From contig CM049316.1 in the NCBI GenBank assembly GCA_026874595.1, positions 69,675,676 through 69,739,675 on the forward strand: a DNA stretch of 64,000 nt, read 5' to 3'. How positions within the stretch are numbered: the stretch's first letter is position 1; each line of letters opens with the position of its first letter. The notes below the pieces were generated by a model that worked only from the letters and a program-made list of their open reading frames with translations, was not told where the DNA came from and ran no database searches. Positions 2,818 to 46,624 of this stretch are shown here, one piece after another. The position numbers and the translations under genes are program-made. The DNA comes from Sipunculus nudus. Lineage: Eukaryota; Annelida; Sipuncula; Golfingiida; Sipunculidae.

Positions 2818-4307
2818 TTTTTAGCTCAGCTGACTATAAGTCATCTGAGCTATAGTCGTGGTCCTGAGGTCCGTCCGTAAGACAGGACCGTTTCGACACC
2901 GTTGGACCCACGAATCTGAAATTCGCCATACTGTTAGATGTCCCCAAAATCTTTTACCAAACTGAAAACTGGGTCACTGTGGCTTCGTTCTTTCGAAAAA
3001 TTAAGGAAAAACTTCAAATTTTCATTAAAAACCTATTATTACACTTCAGGACTGCCTAATATCAAAACCACTTATCTTAATATTTCTTAATATTCATCAG
3101 AAGTATTCTTCTATATATTTTTCTTATACACATGCCAAAAATCCTTTTGGGCCCAAACATAATGGACTTTGTAAAAAATCAGGAAACATATTTACTCACA
3201 TAACATGAAAATTATTGAAGCTAGAGAATTTTTTTCAAGTATATAACTTTGTTTAATTAAGATTAAATTGTATACCACAAATTAGATCTGTATTTTGTAA
3301 ATTTTATAAGTTATTAGCATAAACATAAAATCAGTACCTTAAAGTTTACCCAACTTTGACCATGAACGTTTTCTTCCTGAGTACTGTTGATTTAATTTTC
3401 ACAGCATGTAAACATAAGTATTTTATTTGTTTAAATCTGAAATTTGAAAAGGTTGAAAATTAGGCTAGTTATTGAATTTTTTCTTGAGGCTGTATTGTAG
3501 TCACTTGCTTTGTACCAGATGCAGGTAGGCCACTCCAGGTCACTGGATGTCAGCTATGCCAGGGTTCCTGATTTGTTACAGTCACTTGGGGAGATCCCCT
3601 GCTGTGACAGGTGTACAATTGTTCTCATATCACCCCCCCCCCCCCCCATGAATATATAAATATACATTTGTATGCATGATGTGGTGTTATATGACAAGAT
3701 TTAGATTTATGATGATGCAATTTAGATTTATGAATCAACTTTTATATTCACAAATATATGATATATTGAAAATGTATAGAAATTAAACCTAAAATAAAAA
3801 AATGAGGATTTTATACAAATGTGTTTATTATTTTCCAGCCTCAGCAGAATTGGAGATCAGGCTTTGTTTGCCCTGAACGTATATGCAAAAGTGTTGTTAA
3901 TCCCCCCCCCCCCCACCCCCCAGCTGTCAATGATCCTTTGCACCTGTGTACTGGGACATTAGTTTTTATTGCAAATGTGTACAATTTTTTTAATTTGAAA
4001 AATTATTGGATTAGAAAAAAATTAAGAGCTAATTGAAACATATTCTTGCCTCAGGAGAATGGAACATAAAGTGATCAGCTCTGTCTCTCCATCATCTCTC
4101 CATTATCATTAAATATATATATTAATTATGAAATTTTCCCTTTAAGCACTATTGAAATAACTTTCATATGCTGTATGTGTATGGATTACAGCTATTAAAG
4201 TCTGAAATTTGAAAGCAACTTATATGTTCAGATGTTTAGTATTGCAAATGAAAAACTTTAAAATATTAAAATATATTATCAGTGTTTGTCTAACAGTCTG
4301 TCTGTCC
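2818..4307 (+). mobile_element. Family A element, 5' half, interrupted by a C element
   Basis: The 5' terminus is TTTTTAGCTCAGCTGACT followed by the family hairpin: TAGCTCAGCTGACT pairs with AGTCATCTGAGCTA across a 3-nt loop. A CCGTC-rich stretch follows. The body (accttaaa...cccaactttgacc and onward) recurs at 9.2, 10.6, 24.4 and 25.0 kb, and reversed at 38.4-38.7 kb. Poly-C tracts lie at 3633-3647 and 3902-3914. A C element interrupts the body at 4308 and A-type sequence resumes at 8231. The 3' end of this copy cannot be assigned with certainty. Confidence 0.65.
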
Positions 4308-7300
4308 TTTTTAGCGAATATGTGAGCTTATTTGATGGTGTGGCGTCGTCTGTCGTCTGTATGTTAACCCATACTATCTTGAAAACGGCAAGAGTTAGCA
4401 TCACAAAATCTTATGCAAAAAATTAGTCATCTTAAGAACTCTATCGGATTTTGCTTATTTTTTTGGCTAACTGCATTTTCTTAGATTTTATAGGGATAAA
4501 ACTAAAAAAGCTATAAAAATCTTCTCCGAAACTGTCCAACCAAATTGTCCAATATTTCACAGAAATAATTCCTGGAACAATCTCTTTCAAGTTTTTTCGA
4601 ATGGTTTAAGTTCAGTGATTTTTGGCCGAGTTACAGGAAGTTGAACTTAGTCATCTGTCTAAAAAAGCATTCTAAAATTATAATCTCAGAAACAGCTAAA
4701 GCTATCATCACCAAATATTATGCCAATGTTGGTCACGTGAGTCATATCTGAAATTGAGGTATTGGTGGCGCCACCTGCATCGGCCTTTTTTGTACTGAGG
4801 TCATCAGTGCCTGTATCATACTGACTGCTACAAAAAACTTCTTCTCTGAAACCATATGGCCAAATTGTTTAATATCGCACAGAAATGATCCTAGGGTATT
4901 GCTTTCTTAAGTTTGTTCAAGTGTTCTCAGTTCAGTGACTTTTGGCTGAGTTATGGGAAGCTAAATTTAGTTATATGCCTTTACAGCCCATTTTAGCTCA
5001 GTGGCTACAAAGATCTTCTAAAAAACCACTGGGCCAAATTCTTAAATCTCGCACATTAATTACCCTTAGATGTTGATAATTTAAGTTTGTTCAAATGGTT
5101 TTGGTTCAGTGATTATTGGCTGAGTTATGGAAAGCTTAACTTAGACATTTTGCTGTATTTTCCCATATGAGTTATAAACCTGCAAAACGTTTTTTGACTG
5201 ATGCCACTGAGGCCAATTTGTTTAATATTTTACAAGAATAATCGCCTGAATAATTCCTATAATAATTGTCTTTTATGGTTCCAAAGAATGAATTTTGGCT
5301 GAATTATAAAGATTGAATGGAGTCATTTTACCATATATATTAGCTGTGTAAAGTAGATTCATCTAGCCTGGCACCAGTTTATCAGCATCCGTTACATCAT
5401 ACCTCTAGACATTCAGATTTCAGGTTTTCTATGGTTAATATTGACAAGAATGTTTCTTTAAAAGCTTTTAAAAAATGTAGATTTTTTATTTTAGATATTC
5501 CTCATGCCAGGCAATGTTAACAATCACGGGTATACAGCTCTCTGTGGGTATATAAAGACAGCTCTACATGGATTATAAATAATAAGTATCCATACTCAAC
5601 TTAATTCAAGATTTTGCCATCAGTGAGATGTATCTGTTTTATAATTTTGCATTCAGTATGCATCTGTAGTAATTTTTAGTGAACCTGTGAGCTAATGAGA
5701 TGGTGTGGCGGCGTCCGTCGTCCATCTTCTGTGTGTTAACCCATACTTTCTCGAAAATGACTGGAGCTAGCATCATAAAATTTAATGCAAAAATTAGCCA
5801 TCTAAAAAACTGTACATTTTCTTAGATTTTATAGAGAAAAAGCTAAAAAAAACTTTAAAAATCTTCACCTCCAAACCAGTCAAGCCAAATTGTTCAATAT
5901 TTCACAGAAATAATTTTTTATATCATCTCTCTCAAGTTTGTTTGAATGGTTCAAGTTCGGTTAATTTTGGCCGAGTTACAACGGGAAGTTGAACTTAGTC
6001 ATCTGTACAAAAAAGCATACTAAAATGACAATCTCAGAAACGGCCGCAGCTATCATCACCAAATTTTATGCCAGTGCTGGTCACATGAGTCATATATGAA
6101 ATTCAAGTATTGGTGGCGCCACCTGCATTGACTTTTTTTGTACGGGGGTCTTTGGTCATCTGCACATTAACCCATAATTTCTCAGGAATAGCAGGAGCTA
6201 CCATCCGCAGATTTTATACAGTAATCTGTCACATATCAAATGTTTTGGGATTCAGCTTATTTTTTTACTATCTGCATTTACTTAGATTTCATAGGGAAAT
6301 TAAAGCTGAAAAACCTTTAAAAATCTTCTTCTTGTGAACGGTCAGAAGTTTGTTCAAATGGTTTGCATTTGATGAATTTTAGCGGAGTTACACAACTTTG
6401 AACTTAGTCATTTGGCCAAGTAAGTATACTGATATATACAAATTTTGGTCACATGACTCATTTTTGAAGTTGCAGATTTCGTGGTGACACTAACATAGAC
6501 CTGTTTTTTATAGGCAAAAACCTCATAATTTTAGCCTCTTTCAGCTTAAAAAGTTTATGATGAAACTGTCAAAGTGAATTATTCAATTTTTCAAAAGAAT
6601 TATCCTAGGACATGGTTCCCTATCATATAAGAATAGATTGAGTTTGTTGATTTTTGGTTGAGTCATAAAAAGCTTAAGTTGGTCTTATGGCCATTATTAT
6701 GTTTATTTCAAACTGAGGACTGCAATAGTGCTTTTCTACAAAATTATTGTTTCAATTATTACTTCTGTAACATTGCACAAAAATTATTCTTAGGTGACCT
6801 TTGTTCAAGTGTACTTGAATGATTTTTGGCAGAATTATAGGACCTTTAACAATGAAAGGACTGCATCTTTTATTATTCTAGATATTCTGATAAAAAGTTT
6901 ATGAATATGTCAGCTAAAAAAAAAGCATTTTAGCCAAAGTCTTTCAGTATGTGTAAACAGATTTACCAACAGGCCAAGATTGTGTCTGTATCTTTAAATA
7001 GGTTCAGAAACTGCCAACTATTTCAGATTTGGCAACAGATCAAGAGTTCATTCAGTGCAGCCAGATATAGGTCAAGAGTTCAACCAGTGCAGCCAAGCGC
7101 AAGGCATGTGATCACCTCATGGGTGACATGTGAACACCTCATGGGCACCATGTGATCACCTCATAGTTAGCATGTGATCACCTCATGGTTATCATGTGAT
7201 CACTCTATGTGTGTCATGCACCTCAGGGCTGCATATGGAATCAATCTGTGAGCTTATGCAATGGTGTGGCTACTATTTCAGACTTGGCAACAGACAAAAG

Positions 7301-8230
7301 GTCAGTCTGGATCTATTTATAGCTTTGGCAGACTGCCAACTGTATCAGATAAGGCAACAGGCCAAGAGTTCACTCAGTGCAGCCAGGTATAGGTCAGGAG
7401 TTCACTCAGTGCAGTGGCTGCATTCTATTTAAAGCATTGGCAGACTGCCCACTGCATCAGATTTGGCATCAAAGTTCAGCCTGGAACTATTTATAGCTTT
7501 GGCAGACTGCCAACTGTGTCAGATTATGCAACAGGTCAAGAGTTCACTCAGTGCAGCTAGGTATATAGGTCAAAAGTTCACTCAGTCTAGCCAGGTGCAG
7601 GTCATGAGTTCATTCAGTGCAGTAGCCTGAATCAGCAGTTTGTCACAGTTCACTCAATGGGGCAACTGCCTTTCTCACCTAAGCCTGGCCTGCCCCATGC
7701 ATCAGACTCAAGGTAAGTTTGATGTATTGGCCTGGTATTTTGACCATGTGTCTTTGATGGCTTTCTTGCTCACAAGACAGGTGTTGCCACCTACAATGAC
7801 TTTTGCACAGTGTATATGCCTGCTTATTTTTACAGAGGAATTTGATATATCAGCCTGAAATGGGCATATTTATACATATTTTATAGCTTTGTTGTATACA
7901 AGACTGTTGGTGACACCTACAATAATTTTTGCACAGTGTGTGTCCCTGTGTACTTCTCAGGAGGGGTTTTATATATCAGTCTAAATTGGGCATATGTAAA
8001 TATCTCTGATAGCTTCATTATATACAAGACTGGTGGTGCCAGCTACAATCATTTTTGTGTTGTGTGCACCCATGCCAGAATTTCAGCAGTGATGTTTGTG
8101 TAATTGTTTCGTATTCAAAATGTTTAGTACTTGTATTGTTCATATACATGAAAAGTAATTTTCCAGCATTGAAGCATTATACCTGGTGTATTTCCCAATG
8201 CACAGGTTCGCATTAGGCCTGTAGGCCTTG
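4308..8230 (+). mobile_element. Family C element (Helentron-like, non-autonomous)
   Basis: It begins TTTTTAGCGAATATGTGAGC with a GTCGTC-rich leader. It ends with CACAGGTTCGC, the inverse of the family 5' end GCGAACCTGTG, then hairpin AGGCC-TGTA-GGCCT and CTTG before Ts. The body is a chain of divergent repeats (for example 'gctagcatcaccaaattttatg', 'ttttggctgagttatggga' and 'aagagttcactcagtgcagc'). A second C 5' end lies inside at 5673, so this is probably a C inserted into a C with only one 3' end kept. The palindrome GGTGGCGCCACC occurs near 4766 and 6110. No protein is encoded. Confidence 0.75.
7105..7215 (+). repeat. ~23-bp minisatellite inside a C element
   Basis: About five tandem units of roughly 23 bases, each close to CATGTGATCACCTCATGG with a variable tail. 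They lie in the C element body upstream of the 'gttcactcagtgcag' repeats. TGATCA in each unit makes the array locally self-complementary. Confidence 0.7.
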
Positions 8231-8592: not shown

Positions 8593-8649
<57 letters not shown>

Positions 8650-8667: not shown

Positions 8668-11600
8668 TTTTTAGCTCAGCTGACTATAAGTCCGTCCGTC
8701 CGTCCGTAGATGTGGCACGTTTTGAAACCGTCAGACCTAGGAATCCAAAATTCAGAATAATTTTAGATGCCCCAAAGATCTCCTACCAAGCCGAAAACTG
8801 GGTCTTTGCGACTTCGTTCCTATGAGAAATTAAGGAAAAACCTCAATTTTTTATTAAAAACCTATTTTCACACTTCAGCACTGCCTAATATCAAAACCAC
8901 TCATCTGTTTTTCCTCATATTTACCATAAATATTCCTCTATATAGTTCCTATGTACATGCAAGAAATTAGGTCTGTATTATATAATTTAAAAAAGTTTTG
9001 GGCCCAAACATAATGCATTTTGTAAGAAATCAGGAAAGATATTTGAACACTTAACACAAAACATGTTAAAGCTATAGACTTTTTTCCAGTAATATAACAT
9101 TAATTAATCAAAATTAAATTGTATACCCAAAATTAGATCAAAATCTTTTAAATTTTAAAAAAATATTAACAAAAAAAATAAAAAATTGGTACCTTAAATT
9201 TTGCCCAATTTTGACCATGGCACGTTTTTTTCCTATAAGTACTGTTGATCTAATTTTCACAGCATGTACAAATAAGGATTTAATCTGTTAAAATCTGAAA
9301 TTTGAAAATAAAAGCTTAAAAAATAGTCTAGCTATTGAAGTTTTTTAGAAGACTTAATGTATTTGTATTTTCTAACATCATGACCCTACTTTTGTTTACC
9401 TGGTAATCCAAAAACTGGCATAATGTTAGATGTAATTGTAAATATTCATATTCTTCCATACATTTCCTATGTACATACCAAAATTTAGGTCAGTATTGCA
9501 TAATTTGTTGAAGTTATAGGCCCAAACATAATGAGCTTTGTAAAAAATCAGGATATATTGATACCCCAGCTGGCAGCATTGTTGGTTTTTCTGGCGCTGA
9601 TGTGCTGGAAGGGAATCCCGGTTCATCCACCATAATGATACGGGACCCGGTCTCCACCATAATGATACGGAGGAGGGGTTGGGGATGTCCCCACACTGTA
9701 TCACAAGGGGTTGCTGATGCTGATGCGCGTGGCAGACAATGTTCCAAGACCAGTTTGATGACAGAAGTCTTTATTCAATAGCAAGAGGTCTGGGACAGTC
9801 TCTCTCTCTGAGAGAGCCGCCCAGCCTCCCTGACTCTCCGACTCTCAGTGCGCACTACAGATAGTTTTGTTACAGAGCTTTCACGTGACATATGAGACGT
9901 ACATATCCATATTTCTGCATTTCGTCATAAAAGCTAAACCTTATTGGATGACTCAAAGAATGTCACAATTACATCAGAGTTATAAGTTGACTTTATAAGT
10001 TTTGCCAGATTTTACTGGATGAAAGTATTCTGGAAAATCCCAAGTCTGACCTGACATACATCCAGTTATAGGCTGACCTACAAGTCCTATTTGGAGGACA
10101 GTGCTTATATACACATGCGGAGTCTCATAAAATAACATGTTTTAATTGTTTTCTACCATTCCCTCATAAAGACTAAACACATAAGTCATTCTGTGACACT
10201 ATTTCTGTTGTACAGACTTAAAATAGACCTTAATGGTTTGGTGTACTGTTCTCTGATTGAACTGGGAGAGAAGCCTATATATGTGTGTGACCGGATGACT
10301 GGTTGTCGGGTGTCGTCAATTATGAGAAGTCATTAATTGTTCAGTCTGACATGCCTGAAACTGAGCTTAAATTTGTGAAATATGAAATGTGAAATATTCC
10401 TTGAAATATGTGTTAAGTCACAAATATGCACTTTCCTACCCCATAACAATATATTTACTCACTTAACATAAGAATGGCTGAGACTTTTTATCAGGAATAT
10501 AACATCATTTAATCAAGATTCAATTGTATACGGAAAATTAGATCTGAAATTTGCAATTTTTTTAAGTTATTAGCATAAATATAAAATCAGTACCTTAAAT
10601 TTTGCTCAACTTTGGCCACGGCATAATTTTTTCCTGTAAGTACTGTGGATGTTATTTTCACAGCATGTACACATTAGGATTAAATCTGTTAAAATCTTAA
10701 ATATGAAAAATAAAAGGTGCAAAATTAGGCTATTTATTGAATTTGTTTGGAGGCTCTTGTTGTATTCCCTTAAATTGTCAAGCAGTCCACTGAGGTCACT
10801 GTAGGTCATTCAATGCAACTCTCTATGCTCCCCAGGCTGTTATGTAATTCCATCACTCCCGGCAAGCCCTCTCTCTTGTTGAGCTTGATCAGGCTGCCAG
10901 CATAAATACCACAGGCAGCCTTTCTCTCTCCCCCCCCCCCCCACCCCATTCTGTTGACAGACCTGTACTCTAAACAAGATGAATCTTATAATTTCACATT
11001 TTTTCAGTGATGAACAGTAACAACAGAGACCCCTCACTGAACCCACCGCTTCGATACACAGGACTAATATACAAGACAAAGCTGATAATTTTAATGTTAA
11101 AAAGTTCTTTTTGTTGAGACTTGGACAATTTTGATTTTTTTTAAAGAAAAAAATGTTCAGGAATTTAATCCTAATATTCATATATGGTAAAATATTAGGA
11201 CCTAATGAAAGTGCTAACTGACAAGATTTAAGAAGATATAAATACTTTGTAGCATTTCGTTCATATCTCTTTAAGTTGGTGGGGCCTAGTTACCTAGTTT
11301 TTAAAATTAGAAATATTGGTCAAACTTTGTGGGATTAATTTTTAACTCATATGGCCATATATTTAACTTTTGAAAATTAATTACCTTCACACATTATGTT
11401 TATGAAATGGAACTTTTATATGACACTTACCGTAAGCCCATTTTTTCCCTTGGTGCATCACTAAATGGTTTCAGGCCAAAGGTTTCATTTATTACACAGT
11501 CCATATGCTTTAGCTCACGTCCATTATTTATAATTTACAGAGTTTCATTTACGCTGGGCCATTTTCTCTTAGCTTTTCAAATGGCAATATACATGGAAAA

Positions 11601-11679
11601 ACCATAAGAAACAAAAATATTTTGCAGTTACTAATATTTTCCAAAATTCAGCTGAGCGACGTGACCCATAGGTCCCTTG
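8668..11679 (+). mobile_element. Family A element carrying a solo LTR
   Basis: The 5' end TTTTTAGCTCAGCTGACT is followed directly by (CCGT)n; the right arm of the usual 5' hairpin is lost. The 3' end has TTCAGCTGAGCG (11648-11659), hairpin-forming GACCCATAGGTC and CTTG at 11676-11679. An 890-bp solo LTR interrupts it at 9559-10448, leaving about 2.1 kb of A sequence. A poly-C tract lies near 10930. The reading frames within do not resemble proteins. Confidence 0.7.
9559..10448 (-). mobile_element. Solo LTR of an LTR retrotransposon
   Basis: On the minus strand it starts TGTTATGGGG and ends GGGGTATCA, so it has TG...CA ends. It contains a poly-A signal context (ATTGAATAAAGACTTC) about 210 bases before its end. 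It is flanked by ATATAT at 9553-9558 and 10449-10454. Uninterrupted copies of the same A sequence (for example near 24.90 kb and 26.98 kb, 'caagaaatatatttactcc') carry ATATAT once, which supports a 6-bp target duplication. No internal retrotransposon genes remain. Superfamily is not determined; Ty3/gypsy or BEL are possible. Confidence 0.75.
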
Positions 11680-12058: not shown

Positions 12059-12103
<45 letters not shown>

Positions 12104-13165
12104 TACAGAAAGTCATGCTTCACCGCGAGTGTCTAAATAAAAACATTTGGTAATAATCTGTCATTTGAGGAGGGAGAGAGGTGACATAATCGTACAAAAT
12201 TGAACTCCATTTGATTACTTAAAACATATTGTTAGTTCTTCTTGATGTAATGTAAACAGACCAACTCACTGCCACAACCACGAAATATCTAATTCCTTTT
12301 GGCCTAGCCTATGATCAACATGTTTTTTTCCTGCTCAGAACTTTCCAGGTCACAATCCTATACGTAATTTGTCATGTGTCTTAATTGAAAAATGAATTTT
12401 TTCATGCTTTTTCTCAGGTGTCAGCCTCATTCATCCCCGTGACCTCTGTGACCCTTAAAATGTTCATACAGCAATATGTGTGTCAGTGGTTGAAGCAGCC
12501 GGTGTCTGCAGCTGTTTGATACTGATTTGGTCTCGTGTTTTAAATTCAAATTGCTAACCAATCAGACTCGCTTAAAAGTTTAGTTTCTACTCAAGGATTT
12601 TATGACATTTATCCATATGTGTTTACACGAATGACATTGTAACTTGATAATAATATGAGGTAGTTATGAGCGGTCGCTGGCTGCCGACATCGTTTCATGG
12701 TTATACATACACTGTCTTAAATTGGCTGGAAACAATGATAACAACAATGCATGCATATTTTTTCCATACATATAACAGCTATTACGTATGATTTTTGTTC
12801 ATTTAATCCTAAATTTTAACCAAGCAGTATATAATATTTTTTAAATATTGCACATTGACGTCAGTAACTTTAAATGTTCAAGCATCAGTTTCTGACTGAA
12901 TAAACTTGGGAATGATCTGGATTCCTGCATTTTTTCTCTTTATTTTGAGCAACCAGGGTTAGAGAAACGCCCTTGATCAAACGGGGAATATGCCAGTCAT
13001 CTGGTCTGAAAAAAGAGGCTTGCGGGAACCTTGTTAACTGTCTAACTTAATGACTTATAACTTCCATAAAATTAATCATGCATTACCATTGCGAAGCCAT
13101 AACATATATATGTTATACTCTAATTGTATAGTTACATTTTCAAACCTGGGAAAAAAATGATGTTA
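11680..13165. other. Low-repeat interval, no gene seen
   Basis: About 1.5 kb with little resemblance to the repeat families. It holds a GC-rich hairpin (GGGGGGCGC at 11883-11891 pairing with GCGCCCCCC at 11900-11908) and (TA)n at 12063-12100. The minus-strand frame at 11926-12123 is largely a translation of the (TA)n. No convincing exon with splice sites was recognised. Confidence 0.45.
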
Positions 13166-14505
13166 TAAAAAAAGGAATTTATGTAAAAATTGTTCATAAT
13201 TTCCTGGCTCAGAAGAATGGGAATTAAAATGATTTGCTTTGTTTTTCTAGCTTTCTGCCTGTTTTAAATATTTAATAATTATGAATAAACTTTTTTTTCC
13301 TGTAAGCACTGATTAATTAAATTTCATATCCTGTATGTATATGCAAGGTTATTGTAACTCAGACCATCCCCTTCCCCCACCCCACTAAGTCCTTGCTCCT
13401 TTGCACTGTGAACAATAGTTCTATTGCTATAGCATAAAATTTAATAATTTGAAGAAAATATATACAGAGAGACAGAGGAGTTGAAACTCCCATCATAACA
13501 CCCCCCCCCCCCCCCCCCCCACCATCAATTCCTTCTGTCTGTGATCTGTGGGGACTTTATAGCAACTGTGTACATATCATAAAATAGAAAAAAAAGATTA
13601 TTTAAAAAATTTGGATATCATTAGACAAATGTGTAAAATATTGAACTGTCAACAGCCTGTCAAAAAGGTATCTAATGGAAACACATGGTCAGATCTCAAA
13701 ATATTATTTGCAACAATTTCTTCAGTCATATCAACCCACCATGGCCTAGATTACCTCTTTCTCTCAGACTTTATCTTCATTTCATAATATTTTAGATTTT
13801 AACCTTCAAGGTGTTTAAGTACTGTTGAATGCTCCGTCCCCTTTCTCTCTATCTCCTTTTCTCTCTACATCCAACCCACCTTGTTGCCCACACTGTTCCC
13901 TACTCTGAACCCCATCCAAATGTCAGCCTCAGTAAACGAGAACAAGATGAATCAGATATATTTATAATTTTATATATTGTATAACAATTTGTTACCTATG
14001 TACATGCCAGAAATTATGTCAATATTGTGTAATATGTAGACATGGTGGGCATTAATATAATGTACCTTGTCAAGACCTAAGAGATATCATGTCATACAGT
14101 CACAATTCTTAAATCCCCTCTTCAGCATAGTTAATCATAACATTATATCTGTCAAATTGAAGTCTTGCAGACTTCCATACACTTATAGATCCTTCAACAA
14201 ATAGCCTTATCATCATTCTACCACTGCTAAGTATACTGTCATTGCATTCATATTTGCTCAAATATATCGCTATTTTCAACAGCTCCCAAATAAATGAAAA
14301 ATAAACCACTATATTGACTCCATATTAATCCATCAGTCAGGTTATTTCATATATCATTTATTCACATATAACATTATATTTCTTTATAATAGCCCAACAT
14401 GTCCATGCTATTCATAAGATTTGTCGACTAAATATAGTACCACAATGGTGATACATTTATAGTGCCATCACGATCAGCTGAGCGATGTGACCCATGGGAC
14501 CCTTG
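13166..14505 (+). mobile_element. 3' portion of a family A element
   Basis: The start is approximate. From about 13.85 kb it is the reverse complement of 36.53-37.15 kb, so this is the same A subfamily in opposite orientation. It ends CAGCTGAGCG, GACCCATGGGAC (imperfect hairpin), CTTG. It holds a poly-C run of over 20 bases at 13499-13521. The 5' end is missing. Confidence 0.65.
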
Positions 14506-15493: not shown

Positions 15494-15601
15494 ACAGTCT
15501 GACAGATGCACGTGTCCAGGATGTAATATATATCAAAGGAGACAGTGTCAAACCTTCTAGGCATTTGACATTTAATCTGGACAGCTGGTTGATAGGTCAT
15601 T

Positions 15602-29420: not shown

Positions 29421-32400
29421 TTGTATCTGCCAAAACAGAGTTTTGCGGATACTATCTTTTCAGTCAGACACCGACGCTGCCGCCATCGCCGCATAGGTTT
29501 CCGGAGAACTCCTCCATAACCACTGGGCAGAATATTTTAAAATTCGGAATTATGATCGGTCACATGTGAACTGCTGCGCCCTCATTTTTGGTTGACCTCT
29601 GACCTTACCCAGCGTCCATTTGTGTGTCTGTTTCCACACATAAACCCACATATCTCAGGAACCGTTTGATAAGGCTAAAGAGTTTGCACAAATGTAGCCC
29701 TTGAAAAGCTTAATAACATATACTAAAAATGGTGGCGCCACCCGCAACAATTTTTGCACAGCATCCGTCTGTTTGTTTGCTGTGGGATAAAATCACTCAT
29801 ATCTCGGCAGTGGTTTCACATATATGCCTAAAATTTTGCACGTTTATACATCTTGGATAGCTTTCTGGATTTTGTGGAAGGTGGCGCCACCTACATTTAT
29901 GTATACGCTGCAGACATTCAGGCTAAAATCTCAGGACTGGTTTGACTTTTCCCCTGAAATTTTGCATGTGTATTGATCTCACATATCTCTTAATCATACA
30001 CTAAATTGGTGGCGCCACCTGCCACCATTTTTGCACAGCGTCCATCTGTTCATCTGCCTTGGGATATAAACACTCATACCTCTGCATTGGTTAGACTTAT
30101 CCAACTGAAATTTTGCATGTGTATACATTCTGGACAGCTTTTTTGATTTTATGACAGGTGGCGCCACCTACATTCACTTTTAACCTGCAGACATTCAAGC
30201 TCATATCTTGGGAACTGTTTGACCAGTTGGGCCAAAATTTTGCATGTGTATAGATCTCACATAGCTCTTTATCACAAGCAAAACTGGTGATGCCACCTGC
30301 AACCATTTTTGCACAGTGTCCATCTGTTCTTCTGCCTTGGGATAAAATCACTCCTATCTCGGCAGTGGTTTTACTTATTGACCTGAAATCTTGCAGGTTT
30401 ATACATCCTTGACTGCTCTCTTGTTTTATGACAAGTGGTGCCACCTACATTCAAATTTACGCTGCAGACATTTAAGCTCATATCTCAGGAACCATTTTAC
30501 CAATTGGGCAAAATTTTTCAATGTGTATAGATCTCACATAGCTCTTATCATACCCAAAACTGGTGGTGCCACCTGCAACCATTTTTGCACAGCGTCCATA
30601 TGTTCACCTGCTTGGGATAAAAACACTCATATCTCCGCAGTAGTTTGGCTTATCCACCTGACATTTTGCAGGTTTATACATCCTTGACAGCTTTCTTGAT
30701 TTTATGACAGGTGGCGCCACCTACATTCAAATTTATGCTGCAGACATCCAAGCTCATATCTCAGGAACCATTTGACCGATTGGGCAAAAATTTTGCATGT
30801 GTATAGATCTCACATAGCTCTTTTTATACACAAAACTGGTGGCGCCACCTGCAATTATTTTTTGCACAGCGTCCGTCTGTTGTTTGCCGTGGGATAAAAT
30901 CACTCATATCTCGGCAGTGGTTTCACATAAATGCCTAAAATTTTGCAGGTGTATACATCTTGGATAGCTTTCTGGATTTTGTGGCAGGTGGGGCCACCTA
31001 CATTTATGTATACGCTGCAGACATTCAGGCTTATATCTCAGGACTGGTTTGACATATTCCCCTGAAATTTTGCATGTGTATAGATCTCACATATCTCTTA
31101 ATCATACACAAAATTTGTGGCCCCACCTGCCACCATTTTTGCACAGCATCTGTCTGTTCATCTGCCTTGGGATAAAAACACTCATACCTCTGCATTGGTT
31201 GGACTTATCCCCCTGAAATTTGGCATGTGTATAGATCTCACATATCTCCGAATCATACACAAATTGGTGGCCCCACCTGCCACCATTTTTGCACAGCGTC
31301 TGTCTGTTCATCTGCCTTGGGATAAAAACACATACCTCTGCATTGGTTTGACTTATCCAACTGAAATTTTACAGGTTTATACATCCTTGACAGCTCCCTT
31401 GTTTTATGACAGGTGGCGCAACCTACATTCAAATATATGCTGCAGACATCCAAGCTCATATCTCAGAAACCCTTTTACCAATTTGGCAAAAATTTTACAT
31501 GTGTATAGATCTCACATAGCTCTTTATCATACCCAAAACTGGTGGTGCCATCTGCATCCATTTTTGCACAGTGTCCATCTGTTCATCTGCCTTGGGATAA
31601 AAACTCTCATATCTCCGCAGTGGTTTGACTTATCATCCTGATTTTTTGCAGGTTTATACATCCTTGACAGCTATCTTGATTTTATGACAGGTGGCGCCAT
31701 CTTCATTCAAATTTATGCTGCAGACATCCAAGCTTATATCTTAGGAACCAATTGACCGATTGGGCAAAAATTTTGCATGTTAATAGATCTCACATAGATC
31801 TTTATCATACACAAAACTGGTGGCGCCACCTGCAATTATTTTTGCACAGCGTCCGTCTGTTTGTTTGCCGTGGGATAAAATCACTCATATCTCGGCAGTG
31901 GTTTCACATATCAGCCTAAAATTTTACAGGTTTATACATCTTGGATAGCTTTCTGGATTTTGTGGCAGGTGGCGCCACCTACATTTATATATAAGCTGCA
32001 GACATTCAGGCTTATATCTCGGGACTGGTTTGACATATCCCCCTGAAATTTTGCATGTGTATAGATCTCATATAGCTCTTAATCATATACAGAATTGGTG
32101 GTGCCACCTGCCACCATTTTTGCACAGCCTCCGTCTGTTTGTCTGCAGTGGGCTAAAATCACTCATATCTCAGTAGTAGTGTGACTTATCTGTCTAAAAT
32201 TTTGCTTGTTTATACGTCTTGGATAGCAATCTCGATTTTGTGGCAGGTGGCGCCACATATATTTATGTATATGCTGCAGACATTCAGGCTCATATATCAG
32301 GACTCGTTTGACATATCCCCCTGAAATTTTGCATGGGTATAGATCTCACATATCTCTTAATCATACACAAAATTGGTGGTGCCACCTGCCACCATTTTTG

Positions 32401-32685
32401 CACAGCATCCGTCTGTTTGTCTGCCGTGGGCTAAAATCACTCATATCTCAATAGTTGTTTGACTTATCTGCCTAAAATTTTGCATGTTTATACATCTTGG
32501 ACAGCTTTTTGGATTTTGTGGTAGGTGGTGCAACCTACATACACATTTCGGCTGCAGACGTCAAGGCTATTATGCAACACACCCCACTCTATTTCCCCTT
32601 GCCACTCAATCCATGCCTCACTTCACCTTTCCCACTCTGATTTTGGCAGATACACGTAGTCGCTTGTTGACTACCCATATTCTAG
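29421..32685 (+). mobile_element. Family D element, long copy (3.27 kb)
   Basis: It starts TTGTATCTGCCAAAACAGAG, with a 5' hairpin of GTATCTGCC/AAAA against TTTTGCGGATAC. The 3' end has TTTGGCAGATACA (inverse of the 5' TGTATCTGCCAAA), hairpin GTAGTC-7 nt-GACTAC (32656-32674), then CTAG at 32682-32685. Left flank ACAATCA and right flank TTTTTGTG join exactly to the empty site in the C copy at about 8048-8060 (CAATCATTTTTGTG). The body is about ten head-to-tail dimers of 277 bases. No protein is encoded. Confidence 0.85.
29700..32530 (+). repeat. Dimeric tandem array, ~277-bp unit
   Basis: Two different half-units alternate, about 150 and 127 bases. One begins after GGTGGCGCCACC with 'tgcaaccatttttgcacagcgtc'. 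The other begins after the same palindrome with 'tacattcaaatttacgctgcag'. Palindrome-to-palindrome spacing alternates through about ten dimers (for example 29730, 29880, 30007, 30158). Members differ by point changes and small indels, so the array is old. Open frames across it (30097-30444 minus, 31117-31641 plus) only reflect the repeats. Confidence 0.8.
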
Positions 32686-33503
32686 TTTTTGTGATGTGTG
32701 CACCCATGCCAGAATTGCAGCAGTGATGTTTGTTTAATTGTTTCTTGTTCTAAGTGTTTAGTACATGCATTGTTCATATACATGTTACACATGATCTTGA
32801 AAAGTAATGGTCCAGCATTGAAGCATTATACATGGTGTTAACTCATTGCACAGGTTCGCATTAGGCCTGTAGGCCTTGTTAATTTAGAAAGCTGAAAGGA
32901 ATTGGCCAAAAATTGTAGCTTTTATTAATGTTTTTATGAAACCATGTCAGACCCAGGCTCTCCCCAGCCCCTCTTCAGTCACATGTATGTTGACCTTGTT
33001 GACCTTTCAGCAAATTTGGCACGCTTGAGGCGTGGCATACACTGGGGCAGCCAGGCAGCTTATGGCCAGCCACAGTTGATCCAGGTGTCCAACCCAACTC
33101 ATCTAGTAGTTGGTTTGCCTAACAAAATAACAATAAACAATAAATAAATAAATTTTTATTGGTCTTTAATAACAAATTAAAGAAAAATTAATAGAAAAGG
33201 AATTTTTAGTTGATGAGTAACAGGAAATTAACTTGCAGTTACTGATGATGTAAGAATCTTGTATGGATGGATAGAATGCCACATATTCCAAATAACACCA
33301 TGCAGTCACCTATGGTATTTTTCACTTTAATTTTAACGATAAAAAAAATTAAATAATATTATTTATTAGTATTCATTAGGACTCATATGTAGGAAATTAA
33401 TGATAGACAAAGATGCAGTTGATAATATTAATCTAGATTTCTACTGTGTCTAGTGTGTAGATTGATATGAAAGTAGTCCAAAGTGAATATATTACATTTA
33501 TTT

Positions 33504-34866
33504 TTTATGCCCCCGCCACAAAGTGGCCGGGGCATATAGTTTTACCCATGTCCGTCATTCCGTCCTTCCGTCATTCCAAAATCAAACAGTTGTACTGACT
33601 TTTTTTCGCAATGCCTGCAGATATTGACCTGATTTTTGGTGTGTGGGCAGATATAGACCAGTTACAGATCGAGTAAGCGTTTCGTCCCGGTTGACCAATT
33701 TTTGACCATTTTACGGCTCCTAAACTTAGAAAATTTCATGAAAAATAGAAATTTCATGACAAATACACATGTATGGACTTTTTTTCGCAATGCCTGCAAA
33801 TATTGGCCTGATTTTTGGTGTGTAGGCAGATAATGACCAGTTACAGATGGAGTTAGCGTTTCGTCCCGGTTGACCAATTTTTGACCATTTTACGGCTCCT
33901 GAACATAGAAAATTTCATGAAAAATATGAAATTTCATGACAAATACACATGTACGGACTTTTTTTCGCAATGCCTACAACTATTGGCCTGATTTTTGGTG
34001 TGTAGGCAGATATTGACCAGTTACAGATCGAGTTCACGTTTCGTCCCAGTTGACCTACTTTTCATTGTTTTACAGCTCCTGAACATAGAAAATTTCATGT
34101 AAAATATAAATTTTCATGACAAATACACTTGTACAGACTTTTCTTCGCATTACCTGCAGATATTGGCCTGATTTTTGGTGTGTAGGCAGATAATGACCAG
34201 TTACAGATCGAGTTCTTGTTTTGTCCCAGTTGACCTACTTTTGACCATTTGACGGTGCTCTAACATAGAAAATTTCATAAAAAAGTGCACATGTATGGAC
34301 TTTTTTCGCAGTGCATGCTGATAAGGGGCCTGATTTTTGGTGTGTAGGCAGATAATGACCAGTTGTAGATCGAGTTCTTGTTTTGTCCTAGTTGACCTAC
34401 TTTTGACCATTTGACTGCTCCTGAACATAGAAAGTTTCATGAAAAATAGAAATTTTCATAACAAATGCATATGTACTGACTTTTTTTTCTCAATGCCTGC
34501 AGATACCACCCTCATTTTTTATGTGTGGGCAGATAATGACAGTTACAGATCGAGTTTGCGTTTCGTCTCAGTTGACCTACTTTTGATTGTTTTACAGCTC
34601 CTAAACAACAAAAAATTTCATGAAAGACAGAAATTTTTATGGAAAATGCACATGTATGGACTTTTTTTCACAATGCCTGCATATACTGGCATGATTTTTG
34701 GTGTGTTGCTTGATAATGACCCGTTACAGATCGAGTTTGCATTTTGCCCTTGTTGACCTACTTTTGACCATACGACATCTCCTGAACTTAAAAAATTTTT
34801 CAAAATTTTACAAATGTTTCTAATTTGCCCCAGGTGGGGGTATTTGTGTCGTTCCGACACATCTAG
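33504..34866 (+). mobile_element. Family B element (1.36 kb)
   Basis: The 5' hairpin pairs TATGCCCCCGCCAC (33506-33519) with GTGGCCGGGGCATA (33523-33536), loop AAA, followed by a TCCGTC-rich leader. The 3' end has a mutated inverse of the 5' end (GGTGGGGGTAT), hairpin GTGTCG-TTC-CGACAC (34846-34860), then CTAG at 34863-34866. Seven tandem units of about 180 bases start near 33597, 33775, 33955, 34135, 34297, 34478 and 34658. The host A reads ATTTTTTAATATAAAT when empty (about 25.77 kb); no duplication is visible within the T-run. Confidence 0.8.
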
Positions 34867-34911
34867 TTTAATATAAATAAAAGCCATAAAACCAGGAACT
34901 TATGATCATTA

Positions 34912-36222
34912 TTGTATCGCAAGACATAGTCTGGAGATACTATGGTTTAGGCATGGTCGCACCGCCGCCGCCGCCGCCGCTGCCGTCGCCGCAGAGATTT
35001 CTTTTGGACACAATAACTCAAAAAATATTTCATGGATCTTTACCAAACTTGGTATATGTATAGATATGGGTGAGAGGACGAAGCCTATTCAAAATGAGGT
35101 CATGACCTCAACTAGGAGAGTGACCTTGACCTTGAATAGGTTCAATTTTGGGGAAAATCACACAAATTCTTAAATATCTCAAGAAAGCTTGCATGGATTG
35201 ATCCCAAAATCAAGTTGATCGAAGATCATGGATAGGGTTGTCATGTTCCAGAAACTGGTGGCGCCACCTATTATTCTTTACTTGTTTTAATGCCGTTTAA
35301 TATCCCCAATATTGCTACTTGACAGTACTGTGAGCATTATAAGTCAAAAACTAATGGACAGATTTCTTTCATATTATGCAAATACATAGATATGGGTTAT
35401 GGATTGATGTTTATTTAAATTGGGGTCATGACCTTTCCTATGAGAGTGGCCTTGACCTTGAATATTGCCATATATGGTAAAATCACACAAAATCATTAAT
35501 TTCTCAATAAGGAATGCATGCATTGGTCCAAAAATCAATTTGACTGAAGATCTTGGATAGTAATGTCTTGTACCGGAAACAGGTGGCGCCACCTGTTATT
35601 CTTTTACTTGTTTTCGTGCCGTTTAATAGCCCATCATTGCCACTTAACAGTACATTTATAACCTGTGAGCATTATAAGTCAAAAACTAATGGACAGATTT
35701 CTTTCATATAATGCATATACATAGACATGGGTTATGGGATGATGTATATATAAATTGGGGTCATGACCTTTCCTATTAGAGTGGCCTTGACCTTGAATAT
35801 TGCCATATATGGTGAAAATCACACAAAATCATTAATTTCTCAATAAGGGATGCATTGATTGGTCCAAAAATCAACTTGAACGAAGATCTTGGATAGTGTT
35901 GTCATGTACGGGAAACAGGTGGTGCCACCTGTTATTCTTTTACTTGTTTTCATGCCGTTTAATACCCCATCATTGCCACTTAACAGTATTGTGAGCATTA
36001 TAAGTCAAAAACTAATGGACAGATTTCTTGCATATACATAGACATGGGTTAGGGGATGATGTATATTGAAATTTGGATCATGACCTTTTCTATGAGAATG
36101 ACCTTTTCTATGAGTGTGGTCTGATATTAATTGTTGCTGAAGATGGGGGGCCTATTCTTAAAGGGGGGGGGGATTAATTGTCTGGGGATACTATGGCACC
36201 TGCGGTGCCAAGAAATATCTAG
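34912..36222 (+). mobile_element. Family E element (1.31 kb)
   Basis: It starts TTGTATCGCAAGACATAGTC; an imperfect hairpin pairs GTATCGCAAGAC with GTCTGGAGATAC, then (CCG)n. The 3' end repeats GTCTGGGGATACTATGG, then hairpin GGCACC-TGC-GGTGCC (36195-36209) and CTAG at 36219-36222. The body has about three units of 327 bases with GGTGGCGCCACC near 35256 and 35582 and a mutated copy near 35911. Left flank GATCATTA and right flank TTTAAAT rejoin to the empty site at 25811-25824 exactly. Confidence 0.85.
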
Positions 36223-36528: not shown

Positions 36529-38740
36529 CAAGGGACCCATGGGTCACGGCGCTCAGCTGATCGTGATTGGACTATAAATGTTTCTCCACTGTGATACTAT
36601 ATCGAATCGATAAAGCTTATGAATATCATGGACATGTTGGGCTATTATAAAGGAATGTAATGTAATATGTGAGTAAATGATAAATAAAATTACCTGACTG
36701 GTGGATTAATAGAGTAAAATATTTATTTATTTATTTGGGAGGGGTTGAAAATAGTGATATATTTGAGCAAATATGAATGCAATGACAGCAGTAATAAGCA
36801 GTAGTAGAATGATGATAAGGCTATTTGTTGAAGGATCTTAAGTGAATGGTAGTCTGCAAGCTTTCAATTTGACAGATATGATGTTATGATTAACTATGCT
36901 GATGAAGTGATTTATGAATTTGTGACTGTATGACACAATATCTCTTTAGTCTTGACAAGGTACATTATTGTGATGCCCACTATGTCTACATATTACACAA
37001 TATTGACATAATTTCTGGCATGTACATAGGTACCTATGGACGAATAGTTATATACAAAATATTAAAGTATGAATATATCTGATTCATCTTGTTCTTGCTT
37101 ACTGAGGCTGACTTTGGGATGGGGTTTGGAGAGGAGAAAAGTGAGGGCAGCACAAAGGTGGATGTAGAAATATTCTAGTGTAATGTTTTTCATTTATATA
37201 AGAATATGAAAAGCTAAGAGGAAAGGGGCCCTCCTACTTGGTTATAGTAAAGTTCTAAATATATGATTGCAAACTAATACTATGACAAGACTGTCATGAA
37301 GAAAAACAGTAAAAGTTTTGAGATACTGTGATGCATTTGAAAATTTACAGATGGACAGGCAAGTGGACAGAATGGACTAATACCTTTATTTCACTTTCAA
37401 GGGAATAATGCATTTAATTTTATATATAAGCCTATTTTTTAAAGCATATCCACTTTTTCCATTAAGAAGTTTTTATCTGAATCATTTTTTTTTATTTACA
37501 GGTTTTATAAATTTTGAATATAAAAAACTGAAAATATAACTTAAAATATTAGAATTGTTGCAAAAGTTGCAATCATTATATATACAAAGTAAAAAACTGA
37601 AACTATAAGTTAAAATATTAGAATTGTTGCAAAAGCTGCAATCTTCATATATCCAGAGTGTAGCTCATTTTGGTCATATTATGCATACACATATATTTTA
37701 TTATTTTTAAATCATAAATGTTTAAACTGAATTTAAAAGAAAATAATGCCACAACATGGTATCTACAAGAATATTCCTTGAATCACTATTAAAAAGTTTT
37801 GCACATTGGAGTTTTCAGTACATGCTTAATTTTTCACCAAAATAAAATAAGATTCAGTAAATTTATATAAAAAAAAACATCTTTTAAAATAAAGTATACA
37901 CACTGTTGGTTGAATGAGGGACAAACAATATCATTGTGCTAATTTCTATCCCAGTTTTAATTTATTACTGGAATTAATAGTCAATTTCACACCTGGTGAA
38001 GTTTTTACTCTTCTGAAGTAAGGAATTACTTATCTGATGAACATACACACTTTCATAGCAATACACCACTTTGTGGACACAATTAAATGTACACTTTAAT
38101 AACTGTAACCCTGGTGGTACAATACAAAATCTAAAATGTAGCATAGCCTAGAATAAGAATGAATCAGATACAGAAAATAATAACATTCATCTAGTTTATG
38201 CACCATCGGGGGGGGGGGGGGGAGTGCAGGACAGAGGGGAAGCCTGCTGGTAGTGGCCAAGCTGAGCCAAGGTAAGCTGCCTGGGGTGGGTTACATAATG
38301 CAAGTGAAGGCTGTACTACTAGGTGGGCTAGATGTAAACAACACTTGACATGGTGTATGAAAACGTGAATAAAAGCTATTCTTTCCAATCAATTTCTTTG
38401 AAATTTCAGATTTTAAAAGATTAAATCCTTATGTATATATGCTGTGAAAATTAAATCAACAGTGCCAAAGTTGGACAAAATTTAAGGTATTGATTTTTTA
38501 TTTATGCTAATAACTTGAAAAATTTGCAAAATTCAGATCTAATTTTGGGTAAACAATTGAATCTTGATTAAATAAAGTTATATTCCTGAAAAAAAGTCCC
38601 TAGGTTCAGCAATTCTCATGTTAGGTGAGTAAATATATTTCCTGATTTTTTTTTTTAATTTCATTATATTTTGGCCCATAACTTCAAAATAATACCCAAT
38701 ACTGACCTAAGTTTTGGTATGTTCATAGAAAATGTATAAA
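36529..38740 (-). mobile_element. Family A element in reverse orientation, 5'-truncated
   Basis: On the minus strand this copy ends CAGCTGAGCG, a hairpin-forming GACCCATGGGTC and CTTG at 36529. It contains, in reverse, sequences homologous to 13.85-14.5 kb, 1-560 and 3.17-4.3 kb. Its 5' terminus is lost where B repeats begin near 38.77 kb. A poly-G tract lies at about 38208-38222. It is the only reverse-oriented member of the nest. Confidence 0.7.
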
Positions 38741-38774
38741 AAATGTGAATACTAAATATGATCAAAAACAGATC

Positions 38775-39624
38775 AGTGGTTTGACCAGTTACAGATCGAG
38801 TTCGCGTTTTGTCCCAGTTGACATACTTTTGTACGTTTTACGGCTCCTTAACTTAGAAAATTTCATGAAAAATATAAATTTTCATGACAAATACACATGT
38901 ACTGACTTTTTCGCAATACCTGCAGATATTGGCCTGATTTTTGGTGTGTGGGCAGATAATGACCAGTTACAGATCGAGTTCATGTTTTGTCCAAGTTGAC
39001 CTACTTTTGACCATTTGACAGTGCTCTAACATAGAACATTTAATAAAAAAAGTGCACATGTACGGACTTTTTTTCGCAATGCCTGCAGATACGGGCCTGA
39101 TTTTTGGTGTGTAGGCAGATAATGACCAGTTACAGATCAAGTTTTTGTTTTGTCTCAGTTGACCTACTTTTGACCATTTGACTGCTCCTGAACATTCATG
39201 AAAAATAGAAACTTTCATGACAAATGCATATGTACCAACTTTTTTTCCTCAATGCCTGCAGATACCACCCTGATTTTTTAAGTGTGGGCAGATAATGACA
39301 GTTACAGATCGAGTTCGCGTTTCATCCCGGTTGACCAACTTTTGATTGTTTTACGGCTCCTAAACATAGAAAGTTTCATGAAAGACAGAAATTTTTATGG
39401 AAAATGCACATGTATGGACTTTTTTTCACAGTGCCTGCAGATACTGGCCTGATTTTTGGTGTGTTGCTTGATCATGACCTTTAACAGATCGAGTTTGCAT
39501 TTTGCCCTTGTTGACCTACTTTTGACCATATGACACCTCCTGAACTTAAAACATTTTTCAAAATTTACCAAATGTTTCTAATTTGCCCCAGGCGGGGGCA
39601 TTCGTGTCGTTCCTACACATCTAG
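38775..39624 (+). mobile_element. 5'-truncated family B element
   Basis: About five ~180-bp B units ('cctgatttttggtgtgtgggcagat', 'cagttacagatcgagtt') lead to the B 3' end: GGCGGGGGCAT, an imperfect GTGTCG...ACAC hairpin and CTAG at 39621-39624. The 5' hairpin and leader are missing. GGCGGGGGCAT is the exact inverse of the intact B 5' end ATGCCCCCGCC. Confidence 0.75.
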
Positions 39625-40945
39625 TTTCTCTCTATTTTTGATACCACAAAAAGTCTCTATGGAAACCTGAAATTAAGTCTGTGTTACTCTTATCCTCCGA
39701 GCTATTGGGCTCAGAATAATTAAAATTTTGATACAAAAGCTCAAGTATCTGAATAACTAAAGCATTGATCATCATGATTTTGTGCATGAATATTAATCAT
39801 GGAGTGTTCCATCAGTTCCTGCAAACTGGTGGCGCCACGTATATTTTGATAATTTTTTCGATTTTTTTTTTTGTCTATTTTTGATACCTTCAAAGAAGCT
39901 GTAATCTGTTAACAGCGCACAAATCGTAACCGCTGGACCTGGTATCTTCTAAATTGTCATCAAAGGAGCTCCATCAAAAGTCTCCATGGAAATCTGAAAT
40001 TAGTCTCTGTTACCCATATCCTCCAAGCTATGGGTCTCATAATTACCGCCCAGAATAATTAAAATGTGAAACAAAAACTCTGCTTTAGTTTCCAGAGAAC
40101 TCCTCTGAGACCCTTGGTCTGATCTTTCTGAAACCCAGCGTAGTTTTTCCTTCACCTATGTGGTTGGACCTTACAAAGACAGGTGGCACCACCAGCAATC
40201 CTTTCTGTACAGTATGAATCTGGGTGTCTTTGAGATAACAGCCCAGATCTCAGGACTGGCTGAATGTATTGTGCTGAAACTCTGCATGTCCATAGACCTT
40301 GGATCTCTTAATTGTGACTGGTGGCGCCACCTATATTACTTTTTGCGAAGTTTTTCTGTTCGTCTTAGTGGTTCTTCAATGTATTGGGTTGATGTGTGCA
40401 TGTTCATGGATCCTCAAGACCTACATCTCGTGAACAAGACTGATGGAGCTACCTGCAAACATTTTCCTGTGGCATCCATCAGTACATGTGCTTTTGGTGA
40501 TAACTGCTCATATCTCAGGAATGGTTCAAGATATTGGTATGAAATTAGGCATGTCCACATACTTGGAAAGTTTTCTCATAAGCCAGACAGGTGGCGCAAC
40601 CTACTTTCCTGGTTTTGTAGAATAAAAAAAGCACATTTCTCATGAGTGATTTGCCGTATTTGCCTGAATTGGTGCATACCCAAAGATCTTAGACTCCTCC
40701 AAATTGTACTCAAGACTGGTGGTGCCATCTGCAATAGTTTTCTTGTGGCATCTATCCATACATGTGTTTGCGTCAAAATTGCTCATATTTTAGGAGTGGT
40801 TCAATGTATTGGTCTGAAATTTGGCATATCATCAATCTTGGAGAGTTTCCTCATAAACCAGGCATTTCTAAGGACTCTTCACAAAATTCATGATTTTTTT
40901 TTGCACTCAGGCAATCATTTTGTTCATTGTTCAACATTCCATGAA
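39625..40945 (+). repeat. 3' body of the outermost A2 element
   Basis: A2 ~330-bp units resume to about 40.08 kb, then a distinct repeat series follows ('tctgaaatttggcat', 'cagacaggtggcgc'). It has one perfect GGTGGCGCCACC near 40321 and several degenerate ones. The 161-aa and 102-aa open frames at 40160-40954 translate these repeats and show no domain. Confidence 0.6.
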
Positions 40946-40987
40946 TTCAGCTGAGCGTCATGGCCCATGGGCCACTAGTTACAGGAG

Positions 40988-45246: not shown

Positions 45247-45267
45247 CAATCTATCACATATACTAAG

Positions 45268-46624
45268 TTTTTAGCTCAGCTGACTGTAAGTTATCTGAGG
45301 CATAGGTACGGTGCTTCGTCCATCCTCTGTCTGGCTGTCCATAAGCAGGGCACAAATCATAACTGTTGACCCTAGAACTCTGTAACTCAAAATCTAGGAA
45401 GGACAATGAAAAATCTCCTTGAATACCTGAAATTAGGTCACTGCAACCAATATGCTTCGAGCTGTGTGGCTTGTAAGTACACCCCCCCCCCTCCCCCACA
45501 GAATAATAAAAAATAATTTAATCCAAACCTCCAATATCTTGATAATTATTGCACAGATATTCATGAATCTTGCCTTGAATATTGACCATGACTAGTTTTG
45601 TCAGTTCCAGAAAGGTGTTGGCGCCACCTGTATTTTTTCTTATTTTTAAAAATATATTTTTGGATTTTTTTACTATAAAATGGCAACAATAAGTCAGTTT
45701 CTCTCAGCTTTGATTCCATCTAATGTCCCAAAACCTTTTGTGTTTATTGATCACAAGTGGATGCCCTATAGTATTCACCTTGTCTGTCCATCTGTTCATC
45801 TAGCTGTCTGCCTGTCTGTCTGTCCATCCATCCGTCCACACAAATTTGTTTCCAGATGATAAATCCAGGTTTGATTGAAATAAAGATTTGACTTTAATAT
45901 GTCCCACCAATAAAGCAAGGACCTATATGATTTTTGGGTCATGAGGTCAAAGGTCAAGGTCACAAGACTCACTTATATAAAAAGATTATGGTTGCATTTA
46001 AAGGAAACTTTTCATCCCAAACTTTCCATCTTTTGCATTTAGCGGACTTGCCATTATGACGAAAGCATAAATGAATTTGGGGTCACAAGGTCAAAGGTCA
46101 AGGTCACATGGGCCATCTGTTGACAAATTAGTTTCCAGATGGTAACTCTAGTTTAGTTTGACATATTGGATTCAAACTTACTCATATATGGCTCACCACT
46201 GCTAAAACCCTGTCCAAGGGCCAAAGGTCAAGGTCACAGGGCCCAATTCTTTAAAAAGAATGTGTATGCATGTCAAACCAAACCTTTCATCACAAAACTT
46301 CCATCTTCAAGATATTGCTCACCTGCCAGTAGGGGATGATTCTTTCCAGTTTTGGGGTCGTAGGGTCATCCATTCACAAATTAGTTTATGGATGATTATC
46401 CTGCTTTGGATAGATAGATTTAATTGGCTTCAAACGTGATTTAATAATGATGCACCATTTAAGTAAAACAATTTTGATTTTCAGGGTCCAGATGTCAAAG
46501 GACAATAAGTTATCAGATGTTTTGGTCATAAGGTCAAGGTCACAGGACTTTCACTTTGTAAAAAAAGTTAAAAAATATTCTTACAGACAAATTCAGCTGA
46601 GCATTGAGACCCATGGGTCCCTAG
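45268..46624 (+). mobile_element. Compact complete A-type element (A3, 1.36 kb)
   Basis: The 5' end is TTTTTAGCTCAGCTGACTGT with an imperfect hairpin. The 3' end is TTCAGCTGAGC, GACCCATGGGTC and CTAG at 46621-46624, then TTT. The first part resembles A2 (GGGCACAAATCATAACTG). The second part is four divergent tandem units of about 140 bases around AAGGTCAAGGTCAC. CTAG rather than CTTG links it to A2, B, D and E. Non-coding. Confidence 0.75.
45944..46107 (+). promoter_or_regulatory. DR1-type nuclear receptor motifs inside the A3 element
   Basis: AGGTCAAAGGTCA is present exactly at 45944-45956 and 46088-46100, each followed by AGGTCAC, making TCAAGGTCA as well. Related but weaker copies lie near 46221-46237 and 46531-46542. 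AGGTCA-N-AGGTCA is the DR1 site of RXR/HNF4/COUP-type receptors, and TCAAGGTCA is the extended half-site of NR5A/ERR. Any regulatory use is inference; the motif is part of the element's tandem unit. Confidence 0.4.

Follow-up and report, generated by a model that had tools for sequence, protein, structure and literature searches.

Nested insertions at the locus

The window, by which we mean the whole 64,000-nucleotide stretch analysed here (C11:69675676-69739675 of a 1.43-Gb genome), holds a nest of repeat-bearing elements. Self-comparison and reading of the sequence give its order: an A copy starting at 23260 contains a second, complete A; a C element follows, which encloses D, and after C come B and then E (Table 1). 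A to E represent five distinct insertions in a nest. A sixth family, X, has repeats that align with those of C and D, so that the bodies, described as unrelated-looking in an earlier note on this DNA, are not all unrelated.

For an empty-site test, the two flanks of each element were joined and searched against the window. An uninserted paralogue was present for all five families: at 17602-17756 for A (92% over 155 positions), 25697-25819 for B (90% over 124), 25080-25231 for C (90% over 152), 7973-8130 for D (87% over 159) and 25773-25893 for E (93% over 121). At the junctions, insertion and empty site differ by 0-3 bases, chiefly in the number of Ts. All five insertion sites are T-runs, with the exact point inside the run not fixable. 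No target duplication was found at any of the five empty sites. Genome-wide, every one of the 40 scored D 3' ends includes C flank, so that C and the D inside it have spread as one unit.

Table 1. Elements and features of the window, with the evidence for each.
Element	Position	Strand	Evidence and remarks
A, complete copy (A-type HINE)	23793..26445	+	within older A copy from 23260; empty site; 5' hairpin; 3' end common with Helentrons
C HINE with D inside	27234..32878	+	empty site; 11-nt inverse motif 19 nt from 3' end
D HINE, 277-bp dimeric repeats, in C	29422..32685	+	empty site; 14-nt inverse motif; TRF period 277
B HINE, 180-bp repeats	33504..34866	+	empty site; hairpins at both ends; homology to L051/L052 in the 3' end and last monomer
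E HINE, 336-bp repeats	34912..36222	+	empty site; last 143 bp identical at many places
C, copy no. 2, lacking D, whose empty site it provides	5672..8230	+	
A copy, interrupted; 5' end 8668, A-type 3' end 11649-11679; extent inferred	8668..11679	+	
A copy, only 5' part recognised	2818..3552	+	5' hairpin, alignments
X, A-type 3' end and own body; start approximate	40090..40978	+	last 112-120 bp similar to Rep-downstream loci
A-type element, A 5' and 3' ends, own body; 5' hairpin decayed	45268..46624	+	
A1, A-type 5' end with 335-bp repeats; 3' end not identified	19121..20012	+	
A-type element, 3' end 36529-36559; body cut off at B fragment; extent inferred	36529..38781	-	
B fragment without 5' end; 3' inverse motif intact	38782..39624	+	
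A-clade Helentron remnant or deletion derivative	13099..14505	+	short matches to L047, L044, L045, L065; A-type 3' end 14475-14505
GGTGGCGCCACC palindrome, 21 copies (<=2 mismatches)	29731..32535	.	two per 277-bp D unit

The neighbouring sequence holds features of other kinds. A 122-aa frame at 15125-15493 has no Pfam match and is possibly a host exon, and a perfect palindrome of 172 bp with a TA run on either side (47734-47905) is either a foldback made in assembly or a genuine site prone to cruciform formation. A 574-aa open frame (52151-53875; DDE_Tnp_4, 6.6e-40, and HTH_Tnp_4) encodes a cut-and-paste transposase. On the minus strand, a YqaJ-type recombinase with a PHD finger spans 55179-58029 and adjoins a SAP-domain frame; a retrotransposon gag-like frame at 63029-63508 scored under the cut-off.

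Terminal structures of the families

Do the five families share one terminal plan, as the earlier note had proposed? We folded the DNA of the ends and compared each with 300 dinucleotide shuffles. The 5' hairpin of A and B, previously described as a 14-bp stem, has 13 pairs and one mismatch closed by a 3-nt loop, and that of D has 13 pairs. The fraction of shuffles at least as stable was 0 for B and for the A copies at 2818, 19125, 23260 and 23793, 0.003 and 0.020 for two D copies, and 0.017 for E; it rose to 0.12-0.37 in the decayed A copies at 8668, 15831, 17169 and 45268. In six copies of C, DNA folding gave no 5' hairpin. The 5' hairpin is thus a property of intact A, B, D and E, not of C.

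The 3' hairpin is less uniform. By folding energy it is significant in the first B (34826-34868; 0.003) and in E (0.010), weak in C (0.04 and 0.12) and D (0.07 and 0.30), and not significant in the second B (0.38) or at the eight A ends (0.13-0.98). Covariation was assessed for the A type on 25 ends, 21 of them distinct (8 from the window, 17 from Helentron loci). One pair is double-changed, from A-T to G-C, in nine of the 25 sequences, and 89.5% of cells pair as against 84.1% in shuffles (0 of 500 as high), with 20-57% in slid versions of the hairpin. Covariation is confined to this one of five pairs, and two pairs deviate solely through non-pairs; the nine sequences are related, and the double change may be a single inherited event.

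The inverse copy of the 5' end was evaluated against 2000 randomisations. Its exact length is 9 nt in A (null 0.004), 11 nt in C (0.0005) and 14 nt in D (0/2000), and it sits 19-31 nt before the 3' end. B has 11 nt in the copy ending at 39624; in the first B the motif has decayed to 6 nt, a chance-level length, and the 6 nt of the tested E copy are likewise at chance level and lend the motif no support there. What stands of the proposed common plan is separate insertion into T-runs and the HINE layout, with C lacking the 5' hairpin and the inverse motif of E unsupported.

The ends also separate these elements from two other classes. C and many A copies end in CTTG, and the 5' ends begin without TC, so that the A-T insertion, 5' TC and 3' CTRR of canonical Helitrons do not describe A-E; neither does the combination of terminal inverted repeats and target duplication typical of MITEs, with duplications at 0 of 5 sites.

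Helentrons with matching ends

The earlier note had suggested searching the genome for a Rep/helicase element by these ends. The word TTGTATC is not enriched by itself, being found 18 times in the window against 13.4 expected, a count that 11 of 100 shuffles reach. Helentrons of the genome have the A-type and B-type 3' ends and the 5' end of E; C has an ambiguous candidate and D none.

The Rep domain PF14214 (Helitron_like_N) has at least 143 matches genome-wide, and seven of the open frames exceed 2,200 aa. Among 30 Rep loci compared, 23 form one clade, here called the L012 type, mostly 73-100% identical in overlaps; the rest are divergent. An A-ended element at C7:71189229+ has Pfam matches to Helitron_like_N (9.5e-28), PIF1 (6.5e-21) and DUF6570 (4.6e-18) and, below the cut-off, upstream OB-fold pieces (E ~0.001), a UvrD-like piece and an endonuclease piece. 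Its A-type 3' end lies 4.47 kb past the Rep start, and copies at C7:70.98 Mb and C3:10.58 Mb stop at the same point; the former shares the flank of the C7:71189229+ element and is thus probably a duplicated segment. The Rep of this element is 61% identical to that of L034, whose 3' region is L048. No A 5' end was found in 16.7 kb upstream of this one Rep (C7:71.19 Mb).

We then took a census of 12 + 20 regions downstream of other Rep matches, picked by distance, with the distances for the batch of 20 set from the batch of 12. At most census loci, as at the E partner described below, the part read was the 3' region, exclusive of the stretch from Rep to endonuclease. By BLAST, a sense 3' end of A, B or C type is present in 16 of the 32 loci and an antisense one in a single locus, with none in 30 controls (Rep-centred loci, 107,445 bases). 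A stricter pattern count gave 16 sense ends, no antisense end and no control hit; its A pattern had been loosened to admit the L072 and L076 variants already seen, and among the ends in the window it misses three of eight for A and the two for B. Sense A ends occur at L048, L053, L054, L056, L059 (two), L066, L067, L072 and L075-L079, sense B ends at L051 and L052, and a sense C end at L071. The single antisense A end, found by BLAST and missed by the pattern, sits next to the sense end of L056, and L077 has an additional C end (BLAST) that belongs to a C copy flanking an A-ended element.

An endonuclease frame was recognised in 21 census loci. Outside the L012 clade and L062/L064, 12 of 15 such loci have an A or B end, the other three (L055, L057 and L065) showing no recognised end; the corresponding counts are 0 of 4 in the L012 clade and 0 of 2 for L062/L064, and four of the 11 loci lacking the frame have an end. 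None of these 3' ends was seen in the ~2-6.5 kb past the endonuclease in the L012 clade, the commonest Rep clade, and inspection by eye and a hairpin scan found no ends proper to that clade. The A-type endonucleases, those of L055, L057 and L065 included, are 70-97% identical where frames overlap and the two B loci are 99% identical (L052: Exo_endo_phos_2, 1.1e-6), whereas A and B share 33-45%; the comparison covered the loci other than the C7:71.19 Mb element. Judged by sequence, A-type and B-type ends go with different endonuclease clades. The B 5' ends adjoining L036 and L042 are read as insertions in the flanks.

The partner of E is arranged differently. A helicase-endonuclease frame at C3:82.02 Mb (Pif1_2B, 1.3e-6; Exo_endo_phos, 4.9e-5) is followed downstream by E repeats and the E 5' terminus, which faces the frame. 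Of 100 matches to this query stretch, 39 break off at its positions 1933-1941, where the E 5' terminus lies, and among the best 40 of 6,257 candidates only the query's own place runs on past it. A single stretch comprises both the endonuclease side and the E terminus at C4:85.69 Mb and C9:51.75 Mb, with no gap between them, and partly at C3:93.98 Mb, which indicates that the terminus is carried by an element with an antisense helicase-endonuclease. Six further loci begin at 1567-1674 of the query, after the endonuclease, and in our reading are deletion derivatives. From these alignments, the E 5' end is attached in antisense to a third endonuclease clade. For the E 3' end, the best 40 of 1,145 candidates lie away from the E Helentrons, which is evidence neither for nor against such an end there; 25 of these 40, the own copy included, are 100% identical over the last 143 bp (36080-36222), a sign of recent spread, and E may therefore still be moving.

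For C, the sole candidate is ambiguous: at C3:52.15 Mb, 136 bp of the C 3' end (~90% identical) lie 2 kb past a broken L012-type helicase without endonuclease. Such an end beside a Rep may be a mere flanking HINE, as L077 illustrates. No partner was found for D; L062, which had appeared to be one, holds a D that finishes in a 3' CTAG of its own and is thus a complete, ordinary insertion.

Bodies, proposed mobilisation and related systems

Several bodies share sequence with Helentron 3' regions. The B monomer is homologous to the L051/L052 3' UTR (72% over 106 bp), with which the last B monomer aligns, and at L065 A-body sequence stands directly past the endonuclease, in the 3' UTR (81% over 174 bp). 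The last 112-120 bp of X are 78-88% identical to nine Rep-downstream loci (L048, L056, L067, L072 and L075-L079), and X shares 80 bp with a tenth, L066. The likeness between Helentron and HINE ends directly past CTAG/CTTG and a few Ts. A query with the B-Helentron 3' region showed 30 of 39 other scored places ending at 826-850 (the B terminus is at 828) and 17 of 39 starting at 417/418, a common deletion breakpoint; places sharing that start and the B terminus are, in our reading, deletion derivatives. Copies at C1:46.02, C9:41.01 and C3:51.91 Mb span from inside the endonuclease part to the B end. The homology of the B monomer to a Helentron 3' UTR suggests how satellite DNA could arise from the tail of a transposon, a route that can be tested.

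We conclude, with a probability of about 0.87, that A-E are HINEs, i.e. non-autonomous Helentrons, mobilised in trans by at least three Helentrons. The earlier note's assignment to the Helitron2/Helentron type is upheld: the structure and the empty sites agree with it, and Rep-Hel-EN elements of this genome bear matching ends. Its single presumed helicase is not upheld, because each of the ends of A, B and E is associated with an endonuclease clade of its own, which calls for three helicases or more. Each family would be mobilised by the Helentron bearing its terminus, whose Rep would nick at the T/5' end while the Pif1 helicase peels off the strand in rolling-circle (peel-and-paste) replication, with the 3' hairpin terminating transfer. 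The bodies would be internal deletion derivatives of Helentrons that retained 3' UTR sequence, a piece of which may have become tandemly amplified, and later copies would have inserted into the T-runs of earlier ones to build the nest.

Could a single Helentron, mainly one with the abundant L012-type Rep, move all families by recognising, loosely, their hairpin and CTAG/CTTG end? That end and T-run insertion are indeed common to all families, the type makes up 23 of the 30 Rep loci, and the ambiguous C locus has such a Rep. However, the A and B termini are located on other clades and none of the four L012-clade endonuclease loci of the census shows these ends, and we regard this explanation as improbable. 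Still less probable is that the A and B 3' ends after Rep are chance HINE insertions: HINEs are abundant, the apparent D link proved to be such an insertion and L056 and L077 hold further chance ends, but chance sits poorly with 16 sense loci against one antisense and 0 of 30 controls, with two B Helentrons that are 99% identical up to one common end and differ in their flanks, and with the ten Rep-downstream loci whose final 80-120 nt are shared by X. Canonical Helitrons or MITE-like cut-and-paste elements that merely resemble Helentrons are hardly credible here; CTAG is compatible with a CTRR end and the subterminal inverse motifs recall MITEs, but T-run sites without target duplication, the CTTG ends of C and many A copies, and 3' ends located downstream of Rep and endonuclease all speak against them.

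HINEs of this kind have precedents. In the oyster Crassostrea gigas, eleven Cg_HINE families, related or unrelated in body, are reported with autonomous partners that could not be related to them (PMC7492417). The same study describes a subTIR (11-12 bp in oyster), a 5' IR, a GTCC/GTCY microsatellite, satellite-like central repeats, a 3' subTIR with palindrome and TT/oligo-T sites without duplication, all of which have their likeness here; the Pearl elements of bivalves (CvA/pearl group), as described there, likewise have tandem repeats between HINE-like modules. Both likenesses are by description, not by sequence. For the HINE/DINE-1 elements and Helentrons of mite, mosquito and fly, PMC4067079 reports the same plan, with autonomous partners that share ends and T-rich sites, and a single fly Helentron whose Rep-Hel-EN is oriented in minus, the arrangement also seen for E. 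The mite partners are 84-99.9% identical to the mite HINEs, whereas here the common part is often limited to the 3' end or to a portion of the 3' UTR, and the inverse motif lies 19-31 nt from the 3' end as against ~38-60 in mite. A literature search for HLE2 returned nothing.

Architecture and coexistence of several families are hence already described (PMC7492417 and PMC4067079), and the suggestion that the set may be undescribed narrows to these families and their partner assignment, which are new as far as the literature searched shows; no partner assignment for such HINE families in a mollusc was found in it. Which autonomous elements move tandem-repeat HINEs was left open by the oyster study (PMC7492417). 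Here, unlike in the oyster, Rep-Hel-EN elements were found to bear the 3' ends of A and B and the 5' end of E, and distinct Rep-Hel-EN clades carry distinct HINE termini within one genome.

The repeats themselves share a palindrome. The window holds 49 occurrences of GGTGGCGCCACC at <=2 mismatches, where 0.34 would be expected, and all 12-letter words found in four or five of the eight family groups are GGTGGCGCCACC, its CpG-decayed forms or shifts of it. Each unit of C, D, E, X and A1 has one or two palindromes and the element at 45268 has a single one; within the window the palindrome is absent from B and from the main A copies. The exact 16-mer CAGGTGGCGCCACCTG has 4,777 occurrences genome-wide, its reversed control none. 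Conservation in the two half-unit types of D is 0.93 and 0.94 for the motif columns and 0.86 and 0.82 for the remainder, with another stretch surpassing the palindrome in one type and one equalling it in the other. The sharing would be explained by descent of the repeats from a common ancestor, which is clear for C, D and X, or by retention of a binding site. We speculate, and consider it rather unlikely, that the central repeats of otherwise different Helentron families are kept for the 12-16 bp palindrome (C)AGGTGGCGCCACCT(G), a putative double CTCF-like core. If so, HINEs, with a site or two in every unit of 126-336 bp, would have spread arrays that bind a factor across the genome by the thousand, or, alternatively, would use a host factor to reach or open targets. 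Related literature covers CTCF in molluscs (PMC9023564) and CTCF with AGGTGGCGC; GGTGGCGCCACC itself was listed for one paper, an unrelated one. As a separate observation, three L012-clade Helentrons (L058, L063 and L090) have 319-331-bp tandem repeats past the endonuclease.
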